A model generated the notes under the pieces. That model saw only the letters and a program-made list of their open reading frames with translations. It had not been told where the DNA came from and searched no databases. This document shows, in pieces, positions 2,422-7,393 of a stretch of DNA of 64,000 nt. The stretch comes from Xylona heveae TC161 (lineage: Eukaryota; Ascomycota; Xylonomycetes; Xylonales; Xylonaceae), in NCBI RefSeq assembly GCF_001619985.1, contig NW_017264203.1, positions 124,001-188,000 on the forward strand. Reading direction: 5' to 3'. The translations under genes were made by a program, and so were the position numbers. Within the stretch, counting starts at the first letter, position 1. Each line of letters opens with the position of its first letter.

Positions 2422-3751
2422 CTACGCTCCTAAGCATAGCATGACTTTCATAACCAGATTGCCATCGTCGTCCACAGTTCTACCTGCCATCTCAAATGCT
2501 TCACGGGATTGCTCTAGCCCGCGGAAACGATGCGTTACTAATTTGCTGAAATCGGGGCCATCAGACGACGTTTTGGCAAACATCTCAATGCCTTGACTAT
2601 AGGTGTTTGCGTAGCGAAACGAGCCGAGTAAGTCAACTTCGCGAAGAGCAGCCGCAGAAATGGGAAGCTGCTGGATTGGCGTTCCCATCCCGATTAGCAT
2701 GACTCTACCTCCTGGTCGCGTGGCCTACGTAAAGTCAGCAACAGGAGCCAGGTGCGCATCAACCGCCGGAGAGAAAACTGACATAGATGGATGCCTGAGC
2801 ACAAGCTTCTACGCCCGTGCACTCAAAGACAGTGTCAACTTCGCCAACCTCATTCCCTTCGTCGGCCTTGATTTTGGCTATCGATGCTGCCGTGTCTTTG
2901 GCTATTTCCAGCTTCTCTTCAATGGTTCGACCTCGCGTTCTCGGCACGACAAAACCATGGGTAGCAAACCCATTTACAACCGCAAATTCTACCCTTCCTG
3001 GGTCGATGTCTGCGATTATCACGGTTTTCGATCCATTGGTCTTTGCCGTCGCGGCACATAATATTCCAACGGCGCCCGCCCCAAAAACCAGGGTTTTCGA
3101 CCCTTCAGGCAATTGCGCCCTCCTGCACGCGTGGATTGCAACACCCAAAGGCTCAAGAAGACCTCCAAGTTCAAGGGACACATTGTCGGGTAACCTAATG
3201 GAGAGAAATTATAAGCACTCTGTGGAGCCAAGGATGAGCTTGTCGCGCCGGCTTACTTATGGCACCATGCTGCTGGATGGTTGATTTTCTCTTGCAATGT
3301 CCCCTGAAAATGCGGAAATGCCTTTGCAGAACTTCGAAATTTCATCTCTTTGCAAATATTATATCTCCCTTGAGAGCATCGCTCGCATCGGCCGCATGGT
3401 AGGCCGACCTCTAACGCTACCCTGTCCCCAACCTTCAACGAAGTAACTGAAGAACCGACGTCTACTACTACTCCGGCCGACTCATGTCCGAGTGCTAGTG
3501 GTTCACGCACAAGTATGTCTCCATTGCGAAAGTGATTGAAGTAATGCAGATCTGATCCGCAGAGGCCGGTAGCTTGAACAGCTACTTGCACCTCTTCAGA
3601 GCCTGGAGGGCTGAGAACTTGATCTTCCTATTTGAGCATTAGACGACACGGAGAGCACAGAATGTAAAGAACTGGAACGTACTAGACGTAGATCTTTAGC
3701 AGCATGGAGCATTAATGCTTTGACGATTCCTTTTGAGCCCATATTGGCCAT
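2422..3751 (-). CDS. Zinc-dependent MDR dehydrogenase, sorbitol/xylitol/L-idonate dehydrogenase type
   Basis: This is an NAD(P)-dependent medium-chain polyol dehydrogenase of 384 aa, close to the usual 350-390. Exons on the minus strand are 3751-3683, 3627-3257, 3194-2783 and 2724-2422, all GT-AG and closing in frame. The GroES-like half has TGLCGSDLHY and LGHESAG (catalytic zinc Cys and His-Glu) and the four structural-zinc cysteines in LPCGRCERCSQGRYNIC. The Rossmann half has VFGAGAVGILCAATAK and an Asp pair (IADID) at the end of beta-2, which favours NAD. The start at 3751 (MANMGSKG) is first in frame after the promoter; a second ATG at 3742 is possible. It is divergent from the SDR gene and near myo-inositol oxygenase. 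L-idonate 5-dehydrogenase is therefore an attractive specific role, but sorbitol or xylitol dehydrogenase cannot be excluded. Confidence 0.92.
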
Positions 3752-4548
3752 CGTCAAACAGCGTTCATCCACGTTTGAATCTCGCAGGATGCAAGAGCGC
3801 AATGCTGCCTGGGATTAAATATCGAGATAAGTGAGAAATACCTCCGCGCCGTTCCCATAAGGAGAGCCATTGGGGAAACGTGAGCGAATAATGAAATCTT
3901 GATTGACGATTGTGATCAGGGCAATATGTGGGGGTGGGGGTCGAGATAACTTCATGGCACGGTAAGTCGACTCGGTCCCGCTCAAAACTTAACCGAATTC
4001 GCAACTGTACCACTGGAAGTTTACTGGGGTAATCAGCGGTGCTCCGGTAAAGACTAATGGTGGTGCAGCCAAAGTGTGCGGAGATGAGCCGAGTCTGATC
4101 AAAGCATACCAAACATTGCCAGAATATGAAGCACATCAAGAGACCATTTCTAAAAAAAAATTTATTAGGAGCTCTGAATTCGAATACTACCTCCAGAAGG
4201 CGAGCTATCACCATTCCTATGATTTCGCACTTGATACTATCTCCCACTGGAGCGATTTGCCGATTAATCGTGGTCCGCTACCGGAGCGTAAAAAGCTCGT
4301 GGGGGGACTCGTCTCCTCCCGTGGGGGTCACCTACTTTCGACAATGGATTATTATTATGATGATGCTTCAGTGCCACTTCGGTACAGCGATGAGCCGATG
4401 ATGATCGTAACTACCTAGATAGTCCGAGATTATTCCGCGGCCTTTCTTAAAGAGTTACAAGTAAGGTCTCCGAGCCCCCATATATCTTCTGGAACGCCCT
4501 GACCAAATCCTCGAGCATTACTCTGTCTTTGTACCATTTCTAATCCAA
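3752..4548. promoter_or_regulatory. Shared divergent promoter of the MDR and SDR genes, with CreA-like sites
   Basis: The 797-bp gap separates the two divergent start codons. GTGGGG words (SYGGRG, the CreA carbon-catabolite-repressor consensus) occur as a tandem pair at 3928-3939 and again near 4299 and 4321. CGG/CCG half sites of the Zn2Cys6 kind occur near 4036-4051 and 4271-4285 (for example CCGCTACCGG). ORFs here have no recognisable family and look like chance. The layout suggests joint control of the two dehydrogenases, with carbon repression; this is inferred from sequence words only. Confidence 0.45.
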
Positions 4549-5555
4549 ATGGCTTTGCAACTTTTCTCACTTGAGGGCAAGACTGCCCTAATTACCGGTG
4601 GAACGAGAGGCATTGGTCAGTCAATGACCGTTGCTCTAGCAGAAGTGGGGGCGGATATAATTCTCGTCCAGGTAAATTAAAATAGCACTGGCAACGGATT
4701 TCAACACTAATAACTCGGGATAGAGAGACACCACCAATACTCAAACCAAAGAATTGGTCGAGAAAGCGGGCCGGAAAGCTATCATCTACTGCGCCGATTT
4801 GTCTTCCCGAGACGAGGTCAAAAAGGTCGTCCCTATGATCATAAAAGATGGTTATCAAATTGACGTCCTCCTGAACTGTGGAGGCATCCAAAGGCGACAT
4901 CCCAGCGCCGAGTTCCCCGATGATGACTGGGATGAGGTAGCTCCGTGCAACAACCTAGGAACCGCTCGGAAAAACTAACTTCCCCAGGTGCTTCAAGTGA
5001 ATCTGACTTCGGTCTTCACCCTTTGTCGGGAAGTGGGTGCACACATGCTTTCCCGCTCGTCCGATGTGCATGGCCGTCGGGGAAGTATTATTGTAATGCT
5101 TTCCCCCTCAGTTTCCCTTTGATGATTGTGAATTGGTCTAACTCAGCTACTCACACACAGAATGTTGCTTCGCTTCTCTCCTTCCAGGGCGGCATTACTG
5201 TGCCAGCCTACGCGGCTTCCAAAGGTGGCGTCGCGCAGCTCACCAAGGCCTTGTCTAATGAGTGGGCAAGCAAGGGTACCTTGAACGGAAAAACTTTATG
5301 TGGGGAGAACTTCGGCTAATCGACATCCTAGGCATTTCGGTCAATGCAATTGCGCCTGGATATATTGCAACCGATATGAATACGGCGCTCATTAATGACC
5401 CGAACCGTGCCTCGAGCATCCTGTCTCGTATTCCCGTTGGAAGGTGGGGAAGCCCGGAAGATTTCAAGGGGGCCGTTGTATTCCTTGCCAGCAGGGCTAG
5501 TGCCTATGTCTCCGGAGAAATTCTAACGGTGGATGGGGGTTGGATGGGAAGATGA
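4549..5555 (+). CDS. Short-chain dehydrogenase, KduD/IdnO-like (gluconate-type keto-acid reductase)
   Basis: This is a classical SDR of 259 aa with five exons: 4549-4671, 4724-4936, 4988-5092, 5161-5275 and 5332-5555. Visible motifs are the cofactor loop TGGTRGIG near residue 15, the catalytic Tyr and Lys in AYAASKGG, and the C-terminal [12 protein letters not shown] and VDGGWMGR. The segment [19 protein letters not shown] resembles bacterial gluconate 5-dehydrogenase (IdnO). [13 protein letters not shown] and the C-terminus look more like 2-deoxy-D-gluconate 3-dehydrogenase (KduD). The usual NNAG motif reads NCGG. Beside myo-inositol oxygenase and a sorbitol/idonate-type MDR, a 5-keto-D-gluconate reductase role in D-glucuronate use is plausible. 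The SDR family is certain; the substrate is inferred. Confidence 0.93.
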
Positions 5556-6387
5556 AGGGCAGAATGACCCGAGCCGGGGAACATGGGATATAATGGAAGC
5601 ACTACATAGTGGACCGGGAGATGGATCGGCATCTCAAGATTTAGTAACGAGCAATGGTAGATAGGCCTCTGGTTGAGACAATTGAAGGGGGTAATACTTG
5701 GCCTGGAGAAGAAGGGCCATGAGAATAGGAATAATACCCTGGCAGACGTGATGAAACATTGGAATCCTCTTTACTCTGCGTCGGAAGGTGGTGTGGAGAC
5801 ATGACGAAGATACAGGACAATGAACCAATCCGAGGACCTCCAGATGCAACCTCTTCTGCTGTTGGTGCGGCTTGGCACCGTAATGTTTTTCCGGATCCAA
5901 AGGGATCTCCCTTCCGATCCGACGTCGCGGGGAAACCGAGAACGTGGCCTTGCCCTAATGGGGAAAAGGTCCAAACTCCTGGATCATAATCTCCACATTT
6001 AGCAGTAATCCAACTCCCCGCTCTAATGACATCCCGAAGCTCCTTTTTGAAACAGAACCCTATTGGCCGTCTTCCCGGCCGGAGGCGGCTGCTTGCGGAG
6101 TTGATATTGTGGAGAGTAACATGGCTCCCAGGGCAGGAAGCTACCTCGGAGGCCCTCTCTCCCAGGGAAACTGGTGTGAGCGCCTATCCACCCTCCATGA
6201 TGGCTCTGATCTGGCCTCCCATTACCTGAGAGCAAGGGGTGAGGTAGTATATTTATCAGCTTGCACTCGCCCACCTGAGCCGGCATAATATCTTCTGCTC
6301 ATTTTGTCGATCTTCATCATCAAAAATTTACAACAGTCAGTTTTTCCCTTTTGTTTCTTAATAATTGCAGTGGCACCAGCAGAGACC
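5556..6387. promoter_or_regulatory. Promoter and 5' leader region of myo-inositol oxygenase
   Basis: This 0.83-kb gap lies between two genes in the same orientation. It contains a GCGGGG word on the minus strand at about 6016-6021 (CreA-like) and a CCGG-rich stretch at 6066-6100. At 6336-6370 there is a possible 35-nt intron (GTCAGT donor, TGCAG acceptor). Splicing it would create a start codon split as A|TG and add MAPAET ahead of the annotated start. No separate gene was found here. Confidence 0.4.
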
Positions 6388-7393
6388 ATGTCTCCATCCT
6401 TTAACACTGAGCGTGACGGCCAGGCGCTTGAGGCCATCACAGATGACATCCAAGAAGTCAATGTGCTTAAGGCTGCGCTCAAAGTGAAGCAAGGAACTGC
6501 GACCGATGAAGAAATCAATATCTATGAAAAATCACAATTCGATGCTGAGAAAGACAAGGCCAAATTTCGAATGTATGAAGACGCATGTGACCGGGTCAAG
6601 AATTTTTATCGTGAACAGCACGAGAAGCAAACTGTTGCCTACAACCTGAAAGCCCGCAATGACTTCAAATCAAAGACTCGAGCAGAAATGTCCATCTGGG
6701 AGGCCATGGAGAGACTGAATACTGTAAGTTGCTGATGTGATTACGCTCCCCTGACTCAGAGTATGTATTAATCATGTCCTGCAGTTGATTGATGAGTCCG
6801 ACCCAGACACGTCCTTGAGTCAGATTGAGCATCTGCTTCAAACAGCCGAAAGCATCCGCAAGGATCGCAAACCTCGGTGGATGCAGTTGACAGGCTTGAT
6901 TCATGACCTCGGCAAGCTGCTCTTCTTCTTTGATGCACAAGGTCAATGGGACGTTGTCGGCGACACATTTCCCGTCGGCTGTGCCTTTGACAAGCGTATC
7001 ATTTATCCGGATACGTTCAAAAACAACCCTGACTACAACCACGAAATTTATGGTACCAAGTATGGTATCTACTCTCCTCGCTGCGGCTTGGACAATGTCA
7101 TGCTCTCGTGGGGACATGACGAGTATCTATACCACGTGGTCAAAGACCAGTCGACACTCCCTGACGAGGCTCTCGCCATGATCAGATACCATTCCTTCTA
7201 CCCATGGCATGCAGCGGGCGCATACCACGACTTGATGGATGAGCATGACAAGAAAATGCTAGAGGCCGTCAAAGCTTTCAACCCGTACGATCTTTACAGT
7301 AAGAGCGATGACGTGCCGAAAGTGGAGGAGCTCAAACCCTATTACCTTGAGCTGATTGATGAGTACTTTCCGAATAGGGTAATTAAATGGTAG
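6388..7393 (+). CDS. Myo-inositol oxygenase (inositol to D-glucuronate)
   Basis: MIOX is a di-iron HD-domain enzyme that cleaves myo-inositol with O2 to D-glucuronate, entering inositol into sugar-acid catabolism. Exons are 6388-6723 and 6785-7393 (61-nt intron), giving 314 aa against about 285 in animals and slightly more in fungi. Iron-ligand motifs are visible: LIHDLGKLL (His-Asp), [30 protein letters not shown] and RYHSFYPWH. The protein ends with the characteristic [24 protein letters not shown] region. I chose the ATG at 6388 ([11 protein letters not shown]). The possible upstream micro-intron would extend the protein by six residues. Its neighbours, two sugar-type dehydrogenases, suggest a small inositol/glucuronate catabolic cluster. 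Confidence 0.96.

Follow-up and report, generated by a model that had tools for sequence, protein, structure and literature searches.

Gene Organization of the Locus

A compact block of three genes was analysed in the tree-dwelling xylonomycete fungus Xylona heveae TC161 (assembly of 24.3 Mb). The window, i.e., the whole stretch of DNA considered, covers 64,000 nucleotides (C11:124001-188000), and positions refer to it unless a contig is named. Between positions 2422 and 7393 it holds three genes only: a zinc-dependent medium-chain dehydrogenase (MDR) of the polyol/sugar-acid type on the reverse strand and, on the forward strand, a short-chain dehydrogenase (SDR) and a myo-inositol oxygenase (MIOX). 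A previous reading of the bare letters (the sequence-only reading) had described such a compact block, with the MDR and SDR genes as a divergent pair. All three genes are present, and their spliced products are identical (100%) to the proteins on deposit for X. heveae TC161. That reading had also taken the Eurotiales as its frame of comparison, which does not suit a xylonomycete host outside that order.

The MDR gene (2422..3751, reverse strand) consists of four exons (3751-3683, 3627-3257, 3194-2783 and 2724-2422). It encodes 384 residues, or 381 if translation starts at the ATG at 3742, in which case the first exon runs from there; the deposited protein begins at the upstream ATG, 3751. On the opposite strand, the SDR gene (4549..5555) is built of five exons (4549-4671, 4724-4936, 4988-5092, 5161-5275 and 5332-5555) and encodes 259 residues. 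The two start codons are separated by a common intergenic region of 797 bp (3752..4548). The MIOX gene (6388..7393, forward strand) follows the SDR gene in tandem, 832 bp (5556..6387) lying between the SDR stop codon and the MIOX start. Its two exons (6388-6723 and 6785-7393) encode 314 residues.

The Myo-Inositol Oxygenase

The family of MIOX is unambiguous. Its domain, PF05153, scores 430.5 bits against a cut-off of 25. The sequence-only reading had recognized the enzyme by its His/Asp iron motifs, and this identification is borne out: H128, H152, D153, H223, H248 and D281 stand at the places aligned to mouse MIOX, and we take them to be the six di-iron ligands. In the 24.3-Mb assembly, PF05153 has two matches, both of them exons of the block gene, which makes it the sole MIOX gene detected.

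The Short-Chain Dehydrogenase

The SDR matches adh_short and adh_short_C2 (186.5 bits for adh_short) and has S151, Y164 and K168, presumably the catalytic triad. With a solved KduD chain it shares 47% identity, with E. coli IdnO 42%. Its score on the bacterial KduD equivalog TIGR01832 (316.7 bits) lies below the cut-off of 338.85. The motif GIQRRHP is present as in E. coli IdnO, and this exact string recurs in 93 of the 120 listed SDR homologues.

The primers and single guide RNA (sgRNA) published for Aspergillus niger gluF encode two end peptides of the protein, LFSL close to the N-terminus and GWMGR at the C-terminus (PMC5814732). The X. heveae SDR carries both end peptides. Among the 120 listed homologues, GWMGR is C-terminal in 115, and 103 have LFSL among their first 45 residues. 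GluF was once mis-annotated as a 2-deoxy-D-gluconate 3-dehydrogenase, the name under which several of the SDR homologues are deposited. The GluF paper gives a similarity of less than 35% between GluF and E. coli IdnO; six Eurotiomycete members of the SDR family were measured at 36-38% identity to IdnO. The enzyme earlier described as KduD/IdnO-like can in this way be placed in the GluF/KgrA-like family. GluF itself was compared by the end peptides from the primers. Strict orthology between the SDR and GluF is left open because GluF (EHA27001.1) has 265 residues and the Aspergillus members inspected have 257. From its family, the SDR probably acts on 5-keto-D-gluconate, and an arginine that follows the second strand, in the motif VQRD, suggests NADP(H) as the cofactor.

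The Medium-Chain Dehydrogenase

The MDR consists of the Pfam domains ADH_N and ADH_zinc_N. Residues C46, H71, E72 and E161, which we take to bind the catalytic zinc, and C101, C104, C107 and C115, presumably the structural-zinc cysteines, are the same in all 26 homologues aligned. In a tree of 31 sequences, the MDR and ten fungal homologues form a clade with 100/100 support, outside the L-arabinitol dehydrogenase (LAD), xylitol dehydrogenase (XDH), animal sorbitol dehydrogenase (SDH) and bacterial IdnD types. X. heveae has a separate LAD (505 bits to the Neurospora crassa LAD) and two XDH-clade genes, all outside the block.

The MDR family is further marked by a loop, FxSS[AG]KxxPHxQGT[LM]Q, which every one of the 120 listed homologues retains. 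At the same place, E. coli IdnD has MRFFGSAMYFPHVDGG, resembling the MDR, whereas FCATPPDDG stands there in human SDH and in whitefly ketose reductase. The loop at this site presumably lines the substrate pocket.

The association of the loop with a neighbouring SDR was scored in 80 bacterial relatives, four of which have an SA-type longer loop, by a test devised once the loop had been seen. Within 300 bp, an SDR is present at two of the four long-loop loci and at two of the 76 others (p = 0.011), and within 1 kb at two of four and three of 76 (p = 0.018).

Some individual bacterial loci can be described. In Komagataeibacter melomenusus (L054:8001-9863), an MDR with the longer SA-PH loop adjoins an SDR that shares 58% identity with E. 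coli IdnO, forming an idnD-idnO-like pair. Ameyamaea chiangmaiensis (L059) and Brytella acorum (L060) have IdnD-type MDRs with the same loop and, in the stretches of DNA covered, no SDR match at E <= 1e-15, the left flank of the former spanning only 1.3 kb. In X. heveae itself, a third polyol-type MDR lies near the start of contig C1 (C1:11648-16341; L008, L021), with SDR matches at C1:14047 and C1:15586, within 4 kb, so that the genome has a further MDR-SDR neighbourhood there.

Two possible lines of evidence on the MDR were discarded. The IdnD equivalog PRK09880 is the best match of the MDR, but also of two among three paralogues in X. heveae (L005, 203.9 bits; L008, 161.7 bits), and the third paralogue (L007) lists it third; because the paralogues hit it as well, an NCBIfam match was rejected as proof of L-idonate specificity. 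The A. niger primers, in the accessible part of PMC5306355, give a GluE tail of the form [L/I/V]-ESGDD. This tail fits the MDR family, but LAD- and XDH-like tails too, and was not used.

Conservation of the Gene Neighbourhood

Genes were matched by hand from three homologue lists (MDR, SDR and MIOX, 120 entries each); the resulting synteny table is not exhaustive, and since the entries are the most similar homologues, the lists favour orthologues. Linkage was accepted from locus tags, or from contigs of equal listed length, which were taken as the same contig. In the Elasticomyces pair, the common length is 66,086, but the entries bear the names of different strains. Cases with members from different strains or assemblies were left out, e.g., Paraphaeosphaeria minitans, Friedmanniomyces, Aureobasidium, other Elasticomyces, and the MIOX entries of Macrophomina and Coniosporium.

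Counting the window, the MDR and SDR genes are found together in all 24 comparable cases: the ten with tags are all consecutive, and the 14 others all have equal listed lengths. For MIOX, linkage to the MDR or SDR gene was seen in 17 of 22 cases, the window again among them. Locus tags place the three genes in a row in Neofusicoccum ribis (MDR 8159, SDR 8158, MIOX 8157), and bring MIOX close to the MDR gene in Bogoriella (MDR 8710, MIOX 8712), Bathelium (5576, 5578), Neodothiora (6126, 6125) and Recurvomyces (5115, 5113), the last counted so although the listed lengths of its contigs differ. In Trapelia, MIOX (8361) adjoins the SDR gene (8362). Linked MIOX genes occur in Xylonomycetes, Dothideomycetes and, by way of the SDR, Lecanoromycetes; the MDR-SDR pair is also found in Sareomycetes and in Piccolia (unplaced). 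No named Eurotiales entry was recognized among the 120 listed MDR homologues; Eurotiales are present in the SDR and MIOX lists. The synteny with MIOX on which the sequence-only reading was staked exists in other fungi, and an adjacency that turns up in further genomes is hard to put down to chance.

Plant-filed proteins from Quercus suber (P0002) and Carpinus fangiana (P0329) also closely match the fungal MDR and MIOX, P0002 repeating part of its own sequence. These probably reflect fungal contamination of the plant assemblies.

A Proposed Route from Myo-Inositol to D-Gluconate

The three enzymes can be arranged along one route. MIOX would cleave myo-inositol to D-glucuronate, enzymes encoded outside the block would carry D-glucuronate through L-gulonate and 2-keto-L-gulonate to L-idonate, and the MDR and SDR are candidates for the last two steps, from L-idonate to 5-keto-D-gluconate and on to D-gluconate. 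The substrates, cofactors, direction and co-regulation of the trio are what we infer here. We consider it probable that the MDR, SDR and MIOX share one pathway. The fuller proposal, in which the block is a catabolic cluster conserved among ascomycetes and supplies the opening and closing steps of a myo-inositol-to-D-gluconate route, we hold to be about evenly balanced, as we do L-idonate as the substrate predicted for the MDR.

The self-contained inositol-to-gluconate module that had been envisaged does not hold, because the three middle steps, from D-glucuronate to L-idonate, have no gene in 2422-7393. Aldo-keto reductase (AKR) and 2-hydroxyacid dehydrogenase genes are present outside the block, and a gluconokinase-family gene lies above cut-off at C6:949503-949883. 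The surrounding segment (C6:935197-950121; L141, L142), in which an AKR, a 2-hydroxyacid dehydrogenase match and the gluconokinase fall within ~15 kb, was considered as a second pathway locus. It is probably not one, the 2-hydroxyacid match being weak (26.8 bits), and the gluconokinase alone was kept. Judged by its letters, the 2-hydroxyacid match may be an adenosylhomocysteinase, and the AKR may be of the pyridoxal-reductase type.

A number of results speak against the proposed route or the substrates that it would require. The MDR reaches 189.3 bits on PRK09880, far from the cut-off of 469, and the paralogues that share this best match deprive it of specificity. In overall similarity to the MDR, SDH (256 bits) comes ahead of IdnD (133.5 bits). 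Pichia stipitis XDH likewise has a longer loop, with different letters, and the bacterial loop-SDR association, with four positives, is weak and a lead only. Of five structure models of the MDR, the best has a mean predicted local distance difference test score (pLDDT) of 85.7 and the others 62.5-76.1; the loop (residues 123-130) stays below 50, so that no claim is made for the pocket. The SDR stands closer to KduD than to IdnO. The MDR/SDR intergenic region and the MIOX upstream region have no clear shared k-mer excess at k = 8-11; at k = 8, they share 27 k-mers against a mean of 20.7, and 34 of 200 shuffles reach 27. MIOX linkage was not shown in five of the 22 cases: in Malbranchea, MIOX is 4,506 tags apart; in Rhizodiscina and Penicillium atrosanguineum, the contigs have different listed lengths; and in Glonium and Lepidopterella, the lengths differ in pooled entries. 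Finally, approximately unbiased (AU) tests on a smaller set leave the sister group of the MDR open, since they reject none of the candidates (IdnD type, p = 0.099; XDH, 0.155; LAD, 0.29; animal SDH, 0.066).

The AU result also bears on a different assignment, in which the MDR is a polyol dehydrogenase of the sorbitol, xylitol or galactitol type, the SDR reduces some other keto-acid or keto-sugar, and the neighbourhood serves general sugar and polyol catabolism. The nearest solved relatives of the MDR are ketose reductase and sorbitol, xylitol and L-arabinitol dehydrogenases, also by fold, and the fold search with the MDR model did no more than confirm the sorbitol-dehydrogenase fold. Several MDR homologues are deposited as sorbitol dehydrogenase, and N. 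crassa sodh-1, a predicted GluE orthologue, is discussed for other sugar pathways in the accessible part of PMC13158570. Against this assignment, the MDR belongs to its own fully supported clade while LAD- and XDH-type genes occur elsewhere in the genome, its IdnD-like loop is conserved, and it has a GluF-like SDR as neighbour in every comparable case, with MIOX linked in most. We regard this assignment as rather unlikely. The grouping with xylitol or sorbitol dehydrogenase that would have told against the sequence-only reading is half excluded: the MDR falls outside the sampled LAD, XDH and animal SDH clades, but the AU tests reject none of them as its sister.

The unequal linkage counts raise the question of whether MIOX belongs with the pair at all. 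The MDR and SDR could form a functional unit that converts L-idonate to D-gluconate, with MIOX as a loosely linked passenger, e.g., in inositol homeostasis. The five cases of unshown MIOX linkage, set beside the constancy of the MDR-SDR pair, are consistent with this, as are Extremus and Saxophila, in which MIOX lies five tags away from the SDR gene. However, linkage of MIOX was shown in 17 of the 22 cases and, where it and the MDR gene are both tagged, it is at most two tags away in five of five; the linkage spans Xylonomycetes and Dothideomycetes and, through the SDR, Lecanoromycetes; and MIOX yields the starting compound of the pathway whose end the MDR-SDR pair would supply. A passenger role for MIOX appears improbable.

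The step from L-gulonate to 2-keto-L-gulonate offers another place for the MDR. It could be the missing L-gulonate dehydrogenase, or act on another hexonate, while another MDR of the genome oxidizes L-idonate. The L-gulonate oxidation step is without a gene in A. niger (PMC5814732 and the accessible part of PMC13158570), where GluE pairs with a 2-hydroxyacid dehydrogenase. Among the best-scored candidates in the X. heveae genome, no MDR match lies near a 2-hydroxyacid dehydrogenase match, and two further XDH-clade MDRs are available there. The partner of the MDR points the other way, as the divergent SDR is GluF-like and GluF acts on the compound that L-idonate oxidation yields; the IdnD-like loop does so as well. 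We judge this role very unlikely, and equally doubtful the wider scheme in which the trio would form an inositol-first hexonate route with such an MDR, the A. niger gluD-gluE pair being a separate arm.

Upstream Regions and Flanking Genes

A common promoter motif for the MDR/SDR pair and MIOX was considered and dropped, as k-mer sharing is unremarkable and the upstream regions of MDR/SDR and MIOX contain no site that fits a GaaR- or XlnR-like consensus. The flanks were searched as open frames rather than full gene models, in ten pieces (10 kb on the upstream side and the next 9 kb on the downstream side) and in 20 pieces further along the window. A DOCK-family gene lies downstream and a partial MFS frame ~10 kb before the window begins; no additional pathway family adjoins the block among the open frames searched.

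Two other features were seen on this side of the contig. Upstream of the block, at C11:118013-119415 (reverse strand), two adjacent open frames match the PDDEXK_12 nuclease PF20516 (74.6 and 28.4 bits). At 245-759 of the window (reverse strand) lies the N-terminal part of a secreted protein, whose gene extends past the window start; its letters look like those at the start of a serine carboxypeptidase S10.

Significance and Comparison with Known Systems

No report of a fungal MIOX-MDR-SDR cluster was found in the accessible parts of the open-licence PubMed Central literature, and the trio appears to be a new arrangement of known kinds of enzymes, with a joint function that we infer. Its gene order, kept across several fungal classes, connects fungal MIOX with the two enzymes proposed to complete the fungal D-glucuronate pathway. 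The conserved trio suggests a common breakdown route and makes it testable whether such fungi burn inositol to gluconate. It also provides a guilt-by-association handle on a pathway with one gene-less step, L-gulonate to 2-keto-L-gulonate.

In comparison with mouse (2huo) and human (2ibn) MIOX, the X. heveae enzyme belongs to the same family across the whole domain and keeps the iron-ligand positions. The fungal protein differs by an N-terminal extension of ~50-65 residues beyond the aligned part, and its gene is clustered with putative hexonate dehydrogenases. The MDR shares the zinc MDR superfamily and fold with fungal xylitol and L-arabinitol dehydrogenases and with animal sorbitol dehydrogenase, but these form separate clades with a different loop, and the MDR is placed inside none of them.

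The E. coli idnD-idnO pair, of the L-idonate operon, is a parallel in gene order, since there too an MDR for L-idonate adjoins an SDR that reduces 5-ketogluconate; the stretch inspected contains no MIOX. The X. heveae MDR is 28% identical to IdnD over 299 aligned columns and has a similar loop, although it falls far below the equivalog cut-off and into a separate clade. The SDR shares 42% identity and the GIQRRHP motif with IdnO.

In A. niger, the D-glucuronate pathway genes are gaaA, gluC/gurA, gluD/gurB, gluE/iddA (NRRL3_00319) and gluF/kgrA, as given in PMC5814732 and the accessible parts of PMC13158570 and PMC6353982. The same two enzyme families are proposed for the last two steps in X. 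heveae, where an MDR would oxidize L-idonate, a GluF-like SDR would reduce 5-keto-D-gluconate, and a gluconokinase follows. MIOX is not in the published cluster (PMC5814732 and the accessible part of PMC5306355). The accessible part of the latter describes gluD-gluE as a divergent pair with a shared promoter of 455 bp, of which no positional counterpart was seen among the scored candidates in X. heveae. The gene arrangement thus differs from the published pair: instead of a 2-hydroxyacid dehydrogenase partner, the X. heveae MDR gene is divergent with that of the GluF-like SDR, which is followed by MIOX.

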